Source: Gammaproteobacteria bacterium (GTDB lineage Bacteria > Pseudomonadota > Gammaproteobacteria > DRLM01). Taken from it: a stretch of 59,032 nucleotides of DNA. The DNA lies in NCBI GenBank assembly GCA_011375345.1, contig DRLM01000007.1, positions 1 to 59,032 of the forward strand. The letters run 5' to 3'. The notes under the pieces are model-generated. The model saw nothing but the letters and a program-made list of their open reading frames with translations. It did not search any database and was not told the DNA's origin. Positions 2,574-16,977 of this stretch are shown here, piece by piece (positions within the stretch are counted from its first letter, which is position 1; each line of letters opens with the position of its first letter). Both the position numbers and the translations under genes were made by a program.

Positions 2574-2713
2574 GGGCGCGCGGGAGTGTCAACGGAACAC
2601 GAAAACTGACCCAGCCGTTTCAGTCAACTGTTCACTCCTCTGGGTCCGCACCTTGGCCACCTCGTCCGGCCGGCGCCGCGCCTTGGCACTGGCGGTGGCC
2701 ACGTCCAGCCGTA

Positions 2714-2863
2714 GTCCTGACCTGTTTGATTGCCGCCCGCGAAATACGGGCGCCATTGTGTGAAATGGCTGGTATTTCGCGGGCTCGCATTGACTTGCGC
2801 CAATGGCGGCACATCCCTGTGCCGCGCTATTAACCCGACAATCCTAATTGCCGGGTTAATAGC
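2714..2863 (+). repeat. Structured dispersed repeat, copy 1 (four hairpins)
   Basis: A non-coding block with four nested or consecutive hairpins. Stem A: GCCCGCGAAATAC (2735-2747) pairs perfectly with 2772-2784. Inside it, stem B: GCCATT (2752-2757) with AATGGC (2764-2769). Stem C: GCGGCACA (2806-2813) with TGTGCCGC (2818-2825), loop TCCC. Stem D: GCTATTAACCCG (2826-2837) with CGGGTTAATAGC (2852-2863). Bases 2717-2745 are identical over 29 bp to 16172-16200, and the second copy keeps stems A and C through paired changes. The tail (2829-2863) is related to 43613-43647 in inverted orientation. It could be a REP/MITE-like element or a structured RNA; I do not recognise a named family. Confidence 0.8.
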
Positions 2864-14806: not shown

Positions 14807-15715
14807 TCAGGGGACCGGCACCCGCACTTCGTGCCGGGACAGTTCCGGCTGCAGGGTGATGTGTTCGATGCCGAAACGCTCGTGGACCAGGCTGTGCAGC
14901 TTTTGCAAGGTCTCCTCCCAGTGCGCCATCTCCGGCAGCACGATATGGGCGGACAGCACCACCATGCCGGACGACAGGGTCCAAATGTGCAAATCGTGAA
15001 CCGAGTCCACCCCCTCCACCGCCGCCATGGCCTGGCCCACTTCGCGCAAATCCAGGTAGGGTGGCACCCCTTCCATGATGACGTGCAGGGCCTCCCGCAA
15101 CAGGCGCACCGCAGAGACCAAAATCAGAACGCAGATGAGCAGTGACAAAAGCGGGTCTATGGGCGTCCAGCCGGTGAAATAAATCACGCTTCCCGCGGCC
15201 AGGGCAGCGACCGAACCCAGCACATCCCCCATCACGTGCAACAGGGCGGCGCGGTTGTTGAGCGTGGCCTCCCCCCGGCTCAGAATCCAGGCGATGATCA
15301 GGTTTACCGCCAGGCCCAGCAGGGCGATGAGGATCACCGGTCCGCCCATAACCGCCTGCGGGCTGTGCAGGCGCGCCACGGCAGATCCGGCCACTGCCAG
15401 CACCAGCACCACCATGAACACCCCGTTGACCAGGGCCGCCACCACCTCCGCCCGGCCCAGGCCGTAAGAATGACGGATCGAGGGGGGGCGCCGGGCAATC
15501 CACGTCGCCACCGCCGCCAGCCCCAGGGCTGTGGCGTCGGACAGCATGTGCACCGCATCGCCCAGCAGGGCCAGGGATCCGGCCCACCAGCCACCCACGG
15601 CCTCCACTGCCGCGAAGCTCAAGGTGGCGGCGAAACTCCACCACAGGGTTTTGCCCGATGTGTCGGGGCGATGATGGGAATGTCCAGGGTGACCGGCCAT
15701 AAGCCATTGTGCCAT
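14807..15715 (-). CDS. Cation diffusion facilitator transporter (CzcD/ZitB type)
   Basis: Inner-membrane Zn2+/H+ antiporter-type protein of about 302 residues with six membrane helices. The metal-site HxxxD pairs are visible in GDAVHMLSDATALGLA (helix 2) and HVMGDVLGS (helix 5). The N-terminus is His-rich (AGHPGHSHHRPDT), and the cytoplasmic C-terminal domain carries VEGVDSVHDLHIWTLSSGMVVLSAHIV, the usual CDF dimerisation domain. I start at MAQWLMAG because the 17 residues upstream in frame are not transporter-like. It diverges from the DksA-like gene with 44 bp between starts. Substrate is inferred as zinc or cadmium. Confidence 0.88.
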   Translation of the reverse strand: MAQWLMAGHPGHSHHRPDTSGKTLWWSFAATLSFAAVEAVGGWWAGSLALLGDAVHMLSDATALGLAAVATWIARRPPSIRHSYGLGRAEVVAALVNGVFMVVLVLAVAGSAVARLHSPQAVMGGPVILIALLGLAVNLIIAWILSRGEATLNNRAALLHVMGDVLGSVAALAAGSVIYFTGWTPIDPLLSLLICVLILVSAVRLLREALHVIMEGVPPYLDLREVGQAMAAVEGVDSVHDLHIWTLSSGMVVLSAHIVLPEMAHWEETLQKLHSLVHERFGIEHITLQPELSRHEVRVPVP

Positions 15716-15759
15716 ACTCGTTTTATCGTGGAGTATGTGAATCCGAGGGGAGGCGAACC

Positions 15760-16152
15760 ATGGCAAGCTTAAGCGATGCCCAGCTCAACACGCTCAGGAA
15801 CAGTTTGAAGCAGCGCTACGCCAAGCTGCGCAAAGACATCGCCGAGGAGCTGGCGCGCAGTGAGCAGGAGCACTACGCTGATCTGGCCGGCCGGGTCCAC
15901 GATATTGGGGAAGAGTCAGTGGCTGATTTGCTTTCGGATCTGAACATCGCGGAGCTGGACCGGGAAATCAACGAAGTACGGGACGTCGAGGCCGCCTTGC
16001 AGCGGATCAATATGGGCAGCTACGGCCTGTGTGAGATGTGCGGCGAGCCGATCGGCTTTGAGCGCCTGCAATCCCAGCCTGCGGCGCGGCGTTGCGTGGC
16101 CTGCCAGAAAAAGTGGGAACACAGCCATGGGCAGACGACGCCCCGCCTGTAA
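15760..16152 (+). CDS. TraR/DksA-type C4 zinc-finger protein
   Basis: A 130-residue DksA-like protein. The N-terminal two thirds is a helical coiled coil (LNTLRNSLKQRYAKLRKDIAEEL), and the C-terminal zinc finger has CEMCGEPIGFERL followed by CVACQ, a full C4 set. DksA proper has Asp residues at the coiled-coil tip; here the tip reads HDIGEESVAD, so this is better called a DksA-family paralogue that may bind the RNA polymerase secondary channel than DksA itself. GAGGGGAGG precedes the ATG. The second structured repeat begins 19 bp after the stop. Confidence 0.85.
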   Translation: MASLSDAQLNTLRNSLKQRYAKLRKDIAEELARSEQEHYADLAGRVHDIGEESVADLLSDLNIAELDREINEVRDVEAALQRINMGSYGLCEMCGEPIGFERLQSQPAARRCVACQKKWEHSHGQTTPRL

Positions 16153-16171: not shown

Positions 16172-16282
16172 CTGACCTGTTTGATTGCCGCCCGCGAAAT
16201 CCGGCCACTGTTTTTGGCGACATGGCGGGGATGTCGCGGGCGTGCGGTGGCCGGAACCGATGGCGGCCCATCTCTGGGCTGC
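16172..16282 (+). repeat. Structured dispersed repeat, copy 2
   Basis: Starts with the 29-bp block identical to 2717-2745. Stem A is GCCCGCGAAATCC (16190-16202) with GGATGTCGCGGGC (16229-16241): one mismatch, and one pair changed from A-T in copy 1 to C-G here. Stem C is GCGGCCCA (16263-16270) with TGGGCTGC (16275-16282), loop TCTC: one A-T pair in copy 1 is C-G here and one G-C is a G-T wobble. Stem D is not formed, but 11 bases at 16295-16305 resemble its right side (TTAATTGCCGG against CTAATTGCCGG) and run into the end of ppa. It sits between convergent genes. Confidence 0.85.
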
Positions 16283-16294
16283 GAGAGTCAGCTG

Positions 16295-16834
16295 TTAATT
16301 GCCGGCCGCTTGGTTGAAACGCTCGACGCTGGCGAGAATTTCCTGCCGGGCTTCGTCGGCACCCGCCCAGCCGTCCACTTTCACCCATTTGCCGGGCTCC
16401 AGGTCTTTGTAGTGTTCAAAGAAATGACCGATCTGGCCCAGCAGACTGGCGGGCAGGTCGTCGGGCCCGTGGCAGTGGCTGTACAGCGGGCTCAGCTTGT
16501 CCACCGGCACCGCCAGCACCTTCGCGTCCACGCCCGATTCGTCCGTCATCTTCAGCACGCCCACCGGCCGGCAGCGGATCACGGCCCCGTTGACCAGGGG
16601 GAAGGGGGTGACCACCAACACATCCACCGGGTCGCCGTCTTCGGACAGCGTGTGAGGAACGAAGCCGTAATTGGCGGGATAGTACATGGCAGTGCCCATG
16701 AAACGATCCACCAGCAGGGCGCCGGAATCCTTGTCGATTTCATATTTCACCGGTTCGCTGAAAGCGGGGATCTCGATCACCACATTGATGTCATTGGGCA
16801 AGTCGCGACCCGCTGCCACCCTGTCCAGATTCAT
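16295..16834 (-). CDS. ppa: Inorganic pyrophosphatase Ppa
   Basis: Soluble family I pyrophosphatase that drives biosynthesis by hydrolysing PPi in the cytoplasm. The active-site signature is [15 protein letters not shown] (the D-x-D-P-x-D-x-x metal-binding motif); [16 protein letters not shown] and [19 protein letters not shown] are the other family blocks. At 179 residues it matches the prokaryotic enzyme. Start chosen at MNLDRVAAG because the upstream codons are low-quality and this N-terminus is the normal one. The last residues (NQAAGN) coincide with the edge of the structured repeat. Confidence 0.95.
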
Positions 16835-16977
16835 TGTTCTACCTCGTCGTCTCGAAAAGCAAAAAGTATAGCATGGAGCTCGGCCACCTCCGCCGCGCAC
16901 CCGGCCCGGGCCGCTGTCGCCTTGCGCGGCCGGGGAAACACGACAAGCCTGCAATAAATCAGCAAAAGGGCTTGCAT

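Follow-up and report, generated by a model that had tools for sequence, protein, structure and literature searches.

The dispersed repeat found at two sites of the window, i.e., the whole 59,032-nt stretch analyzed here (contig DRLM01000007.1 of the Gammaproteobacteria bacterium assembly GCA_011375345.1), is a MITE; its terminal inverted repeats measure 15 bp and lie in YTAR contexts with flanking TA, and at least 42 copies are present in its genome. The core consists of consecutive hairpins that have been kept by compensatory change across two bacterial classes, and two of the hairpin loops carry a CsrA-type GGA motif. Our overall reading is that the element is probably a MITE-type transposon with a CsrA/RsmA-binding, sponge-type RNA as its cargo, in which both the binding and the sponge function are inferred. 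Transposons carrying a conserved regulatory RNA cargo, with the fold strongly selected across two bacterial classes, are unusual, and the element would also give Rfam a large and clean new family. The original prediction reported two copies of a structured element with compensatory changes between them; that observation is correct but understates the case, as it did not extend to the transposable nature of the element, the meaningfulness of the minus strand, the decay of the window copies, and the GGA motif in two loops.

Element copies in the window and in the host genome

Both window copies are poor specimens (Table 1), as 22 bp are missing from copy 1 and copy 2 is an old remnant that has diverged, and at least one GGA hairpin has been lost in each. 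The covariance model R1 matched copy 1 at 2698-2853 on the minus strand (48.5 bits, E 4e-14). With the 22 bp at its low-coordinate end, copy 1 has lost the terminal repeat on that side as well as one of the two H1 arms, which disrupts its second GGA hairpin; in intact copies, H1 reads GGCAATCAAACAGGTC-AGGAC-GACCTGTTTGATTGCC on the minus strand. The 15-mer in H5 of copy 1 also closes the opposite side of intact copies. Copy 2 lies between a dksA/traR-type gene (15709-16152, plus strand) and an inorganic pyrophosphatase gene (16295-16954, minus strand; both by Pfam), and R1 recognized only its H4 (E 0.15). Compared with shuffled sequence, the fold of copy 1 is strong (z -8.0) and that of copy 2 weaker (z -4.0).

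Table 1. Coordinates of the element copies and their hairpins in the window
Feature	Position	Strand	Description	Basis
Element copy 1	2711..2861	-	151 of 173 bp	BLAST to family consensus 23-173, 99% identity
H5, copy 1	2828..2861	-	Terminal hairpin TATTAACCCGGCAATTAGGATTGTCGGGTTAATA; the terminal inverted repeat forms its outer arm	Fold
H4, copy 1 (stem C)	2806..2825	-	GCGGCAC-AGGGAT-GTGCCGC; CsrA/RsmA-type A-N-GGA-N hexaloop	Inverted repeat
H3, copy 1	2788..2805	-	CATTGGCGCAAGTCAATG; short form in this subfamily	Fold, R1 alignment to family H3
H2, copy 1 (stem A)	2735..2784	-	Long hairpin GCCCGCGAAATAC...GTATTTCGCGGGC with inner hairpin	13-bp perfect arms, fold
H1 remnant, copy 1	2711..2733	-	One arm and loop (GGCAATCAAACAGGTCAGGACTA); partner arm deleted	
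Element copy 2	16172..16282	-	Old truncated copy, terminal repeats absent	
H4 relic, copy 2	16263..16282	-	GCAGCCC-AGAGAT-GGGCCGC; paired changes keep the stem, loop GGA changed to AGA	
H2 relic, copy 2	16189..16242	-	14-bp arms, 93% complementary	

The details originally described for the two copies were recovered. The identical 29-bp head (2717-2745 and 16172-16200) is exact, with the identity stopping precisely at those limits. An inverted-repeat search returned stem A in both copies (2735-2747 with 2772-2784, and 16189-16202 with 16229-16242), and stem C is present at 2806-2813 with 2818-2825. The changes between the copies can be read directly from the sequence: in stem A, an A-T pair has become C-G and there is a single A.G mismatch, and in stem C, an A-T pair has become C-G and a G-C pair has become G.T. 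The designation of 2714-2863 as a dispersed structured element held, while the true limits of copy 1 proved to be 2711-2861.

The intact element is abundant elsewhere in this genome. A 22-base seed from the head, with up to three mismatches allowed, gave 42 matches in the 2.68-Mb assembly (35 of them exact), and the reversed control of the seed pattern gave none. Copy numbers for this genome are seed or BLAST counts; R1 counts include some opposite-strand echoes of hairpins. The full unit measures 173 bp and, read outward from the seed, starts with TATTAACCCGGCAATC and ends with ATTGCCGGGTTAATA, which form the 15-bp inverted repeat. On the sense strand, which is the minus strand in the window, five hairpins follow each other in the order H5-H4-H3-H2-H1, with H5 and H1 at the termini. 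Intact copies are as a rule 98-100% identical to the consensus and mostly 98-100% identical to each other, which points to a recent amplification burst. The usual definition of a MITE (short, non-coding, many near-identical copies, and terminal inverted repeats) is met. Most intact copies are flanked by Y-TA...TA-R, and judging from these flanks alone, without proof from an empty site, this looks like insertion into YTAR with duplication of TA.

Element copies lie at the start or the end of many contigs of this assembly, which break off within them (C9, C12, C17, C30, C41, C42, C83, C105, C108, C119, C120, C141, C161, and C162). As the repeat breaks the assembly, the copy number in this genome is underestimated. 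Six solo palindromes, TTAACCCGGCAATT..GATTGCCGGGTTAA, consist of two terminal repeats back to back (C4:13673-13702, C9:8862-8891, C51:2600-2629, C103:22235-22264, C114:12235-12264, and C120:34102-34131), and a consensus search found no RNA core in them; they are either minimal elements or excision remnants. A second subfamily is represented by L250 (C40:13211-13344), C89:28799-28932, and C6:8647-8780. In L250, the only one of these copies that was read, the ends are GTTGAAAAAGGCC and the H4 stem has covaried (GCGGCGC-GGGGAT-GCGCCGC).

Covariation of the hairpin row across two classes

The core of the element is a hairpin row that relatives share in structure and hardly in sequence. When 56 genomes were searched by BLAST, only the H4 part matched in other families, and the loci of those matches contained the same row of five hairpins in other sequences and with other ends (AGGAAGCTCTGAAT...ATTCAGAGCTTCCT). 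Such structural relatives occur in Gammaproteobacteria and in another class of the phylum, often at 30-100 copies per genome (97 being the highest count in another genome), and their stems are almost wholly different. Of 36 chosen genomes, 28 contained the family according to R1; in a sample of 399 genomes from across the phylum, 45 did, and most of those 45 belong to families of the other class. The host records include uncultured Gammaproteobacteria from groundwater and biocathodes, Chromatiales, Sedimenticola, and Porticoccaceae.

Compensatory change in these relatives shows that the fold itself is kept. In a MAFFT alignment made without structure (20 copies from 16 genomes), 22 of the 30 pairs called by RNAalifold had changed on both sides. 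For the 54-pair structure, 86.7% of the cells were paired compared with 70.8% in shuffles, and double changes occurred in 41 pairs compared with 25.1 in shuffles; neither value was reached in any of 500 shuffles. When the partners were shifted by one to three columns, pairing fell to 38-52%. The fold had been proposed to be maintained on the basis of the two window copies; a single pair of sequences is not enough to prove such selection, and the proof is supplied by the wider family. The copy number and covariation expected of a real family (more than about 10 copies with covarying pairs) are likewise exceeded here and in other genomes. Chance palindromes, or the neutral decay of a plain repeat with an unselected fold, are a conceivable source of such patterns, since two copies alone could mislead and inverted repeats are common in MITEs. 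The shuffled and slid controls, together with the replacement of stems around retained loops in genomes not used for model building, already contradict this explanation and leave it a negligible chance.

Variants of the unit were observed in two other genomes. Five loci of G024 (L075, L081, L086, L107, and L377) are head-to-tail arrays of the element with a period of 116 or 124 bp; they contain several units with two GGA hairpins each and resemble a multi-site CsrB-type RNA gene. Three loci of G129 (L128, L132, and L133) represent a longer variant with two extra GGA hairpins before H1 (GTCC-ACGGAT-GGAC and GCCC-AGGGAG-GGGC).

Conserved loops

The only fixed features of the family are the H4 loop (ANGGAN), the H1 loop ((A)NGGA), and a motif in the H2 loop. 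When the H4 stem was fixed and the six-base loop left unconstrained in a search of 274 genomes of the class, the loop in high-hit genomes was almost always A-N-GGA-N (AGGGAT, AAGGAC, ACGGAT, ATGGAC, AGGGAG, etc.), and reversed controls were near zero. Among 100 distinct copies collected with R1, GGA was present in the H4 loop of 95 and, of the 98 copies that could be scored for H1, in the H1 loop of 89, compared with 0/87 for H5, 1/100 for H3, and 1/99 for H2, and the H4 loop was retained on 24 different stems.

R1 had seen both loops, and a second model (R2) was built with the H4 and H1 loops masked as N. With two exceptions (a genome closely related to one used for training, and an NC_groundwater genome), its test genomes lay outside the training set. 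The 51 copies found by this loop-blind model had GGA in H4 (45/51) and H1 (46/51) and hardly ever in H5 (0/50), H3 (1/51), or H2 (1/51), so circularity can be rejected. Their H4 stems include GCAGCCC/GGGCTGC, ACCGGCC/GGCCGGT, GCAGGCC/GGCCTGC, and GCGGCCC/GGGCCGC. H4 loops fitting ANGGAN were found in 39 of the 51 copies; in the 47 six-base loops, A occupied position 1 in 44 and GGA occupied positions 3-5 in 44-46, with no constraint at positions 2 and 6. The H2 loop is also conserved as ACCACGCT or ATCACACT, approximately AYCRCRYT, with AAA...TTT pairs flanking it (e.g., in L077, L265, and L320). No known binding motif accounts for the H2 loop, and a pure CsrA model leaves it unexplained.

Proposed recognition of the loops by CsrA

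The A-N-GGA-N sequence in a hairpin loop is a CsrA/RsmA recognition site. CsrA/RsmA recognizes GGA in hairpin loops, with the SELEX consensus RUACARGGAUGU and mostly six-base loops (PMC7652899). The H4 of this subfamily (GGCAC-AGGGAU-GUGCC) contains ACAGGGAUGU, and its stem is more stable than those of most SELEX ligands. The element also has more than one hairpin with a GGA loop, a feature that characterizes Csr/Rsm antagonist RNAs. In the absence of binding data, we infer that the GGA loops bind CsrA and have considerable confidence in this point. A search of 26 element-bearing genomes detected csrA in 24, this genome among them, but neither in G013 (75% complete) nor in G127; since csrA is nearly universal in the class, this co-occurrence is weak evidence. 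Two GGA hairpins per RNA suit the CsrA dimer. The spacing between H4 and H1, about 95 nt along the chain, exceeds the reported bridging range of 10-63 nt (PMC7652899), although two intervening hairpins shorten the path.

How the core would act can only be proposed. The flanks differ at every copy, which leaves read-through or an internal promoter as the only possible routes of transcription, and no transcription data are available. Transcription of the GGA strand may result mostly from read-through out of neighboring genes, and each transcript would then present two GGA hairpins to one CsrA dimer. Tens of copies could together form a diffuse CsrA sponge, or CsrA could be tethered to the transcripts that host insertions. 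A sponge-like effect on CsrA is inferred without phenotype data, and we consider the case for it evenly balanced. If the loops bind CsrA, mobile DNA spreads sites for one of the main post-transcriptional regulators, tens of copies at once, and a selfish element may spread regulatory sponge sites around genomes. Such binding would also bear on the prediction of Csr networks in these genomes and on the origin of single-copy Csr/Rsm sRNAs.

The core could instead be a cis-acting RNA without CsrA that serves RNase processing, transcript protection, or polarity relief in UTRs, as reported for Correia and ERIC, with GGA read by another protein. MITEs are known to alter mRNA via folded RNA (PMC10969869), the copies are intergenic, and the conserved H2 loop falls outside the pure CsrA model. 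We nevertheless consider this improbable, as the orientation of the copies to neighboring genes is unbiased, and the sharing of an ANGGAN-type loop by two hairpins and not by the others fits a dimeric GGA binder. In this genome, the two orientation counts were 12 vs 7 and 12 vs 10; without orientation bias there is no sign of selected UTR insertion, and we claim no fixed cis role for the element.

Mobility and the nature of the mobilizer

Target duplications support the transposition of related subfamilies with GG...CC ends. Identical 4-bp flanks were present at 21 of the 42 elements with intact ends, compared with a mean of 3.4 and a maximum of 9 in 1000 random re-pairings of left and right flanks. 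The duplications vary (TTAA, TTAG, CTAG, CTAA, TTCA, TTGA, CAAA, ATAA, and TAAG), as expected for true target duplications. One genome (G265) contains a 1,220-bp IS5-family element (NF033581, E 2e-97) whose ends, GGAAACGCTGATTTAT, are the same as those of the copies in that genome and whose flanks are CTAG, CTAA, or TTAG; this partner does not have the RNA core. For the TTAACCC ends of the present genome, no complete mobilizer with matching ends was found. IS630 was rejected as the demonstrated mobilizer of this subfamily, as only a C-terminal fragment lies beside one copy and the ends of the element were not shown to be its own. That fragment (L331, C61:1-420) is directly adjacent to an element copy at the start of its contig, and the IS630-family transposase it represents is a candidate mobilizer of the TA-flanked subfamily. 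A phage or plasmid origin was also dismissed, as no match was found in plasmids, phages, or viral contigs. REP/BIME (RAYT) elements and IS200/IS605-type palindromic elements, which have neither terminal inverted repeats nor target duplications, were excluded by the presence of both.

The original prediction left undecided whether the fold is maintained as RNA or as single-stranded DNA, and its maintenance is supported in that form, as covariation tests cannot separate the two. The hairpins might be DNA signals, i.e., single-stranded or cruciform structures recognized by a transposase, an integrase, or a host factor reading TCC/GGA; the mobility of the element would fit this, and IS200/IS605-like and integron systems typically have a palindrome at each end. 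The terminal inverted repeats, the 4-bp YTAR-type duplications, and the IS5-family (DDE) partner point away from such signals and toward a double-strand mechanism that needs the ends only, in keeping with the absence of the core from that partner. Moreover, the loop constraint agrees with the CsrA consensus position by position, including the free positions, and the core has been retained in lineages whose ends differ. We see only a small chance that the hairpins are DNA signals; since the ends suffice for a DDE transposase, the core is inferred to act as RNA.

Comparison with known systems

No Rfam family covers the element, and the original prediction did not recognize the family. At the gathering threshold, Rfam returned only one tRNA in the window, and lax searches of the copies gave chance matches apart from RsmW. 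Within the literature searched, the coverage of which is incomplete, we found no description of CsrA sites as transposon cargo and no link between CsrA and MITEs beyond Rfam 12. TwoAYGGAY (RF01731) and Bacillaceae-1 (RF01690) have two strong matches each to the CsrA-binding hairpin motif and are predicted binders (Gardner and Eldai, PMC4333381), on the same kind of evidence as used here for the element. These families were proposed for Clostridia and Bacillales and are not described there as transposons (PMC4333381). TwoAYGGAY, our first guess from the loops, was rejected, as RF01731 did not match the copies scanned at E up to 5-10, and RF01690 did not match the copies scanned at lax thresholds.

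In its mobile features, the element resembles IS5-family insertion sequences and their MITEs, sharing the ends GGAAACGCTGAT and 4-bp YTAR-type duplications with the IS5-family element of G265, from which its internal RNA core is not derived. QMITE1/QMITE2, ERIC, and Correia are likewise short inverted-repeat elements with tens of copies and strongly folded transcripts (PMC5896051, PMC10969869). No conserved GGA-loop cargo has been described for them, and CsrA is not mentioned in these two papers. QMITE1/QMITE2 of Coxiella give rise to sRNAs, showing that MITEs can become sRNAs (PMC5896051).

RsmW is similar in plan to the element, and its membership in the family remains unresolved. This P. 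aeruginosa sRNA binds RsmA with a Kd of 11.5 nM and is reported to be conserved within P. aeruginosa but not among the other pseudomonads (PMC4950607). The order of its hairpins (GGA, plain, plain, GGA) is the same, and no transposon ends have been described for it. The RsmW model (RF02809) gave 55.2 bits for one copy from another class (L334), marginally above the cut-off of 52, and at most 45.6 bits for other copies (L333 reaching that value), and its alignment to the copies runs hairpin for hairpin. This and the hairpin order would suit the copies being plain members of the RsmW sRNA family. The best score in the present genome was 28.1 bits, and among 50 genomes scanned with RF02809 only G329 passed, with element-bearing genomes reaching at most 45.6 bits. 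The RsmW locus of G329 (L373, 90.7 bits) adjoins a 74-aa ORF like PA4570, which is described next to RsmW. In the reciprocal search, R1 did not match this locus, and on the RsmW strand R2 gave only 9.6 bits. The third hairpin of the locus resembles a terminator stem, and Rfam found nothing in the window (apart from the tRNA) or in the best copies. We regard plain RsmW membership as very unlikely.

The preferred reading, a transposon with an RNA cargo that binds CsrA, leaves room for proposals on its origin. The core may have arisen from a Csr/Rsm-type sRNA that was captured between transposon ends and re-captured by different ends across lineages. A broader, SINE-like scheme, in which a Csr/Rsm RNA travels as transposon cargo with re-captured ends, sponge sites are distributed in at least two classes, copy number sets the CsrA level, and some copies (RsmW may be one) are domesticated as host sRNAs, is tentative and in our view rather doubtful. 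Among known systems, the element also resembles CsrB, CsrC, RsmX, RsmY, and RsmZ, which have several GGA-loop hairpins per RNA (PMC7652899), whereas a unit of the element has two, and no Rfam model matches it. These antagonist sRNAs are host genes present in one or a few copies; in contrast, the element is mobile and often present in 30-100 copies.
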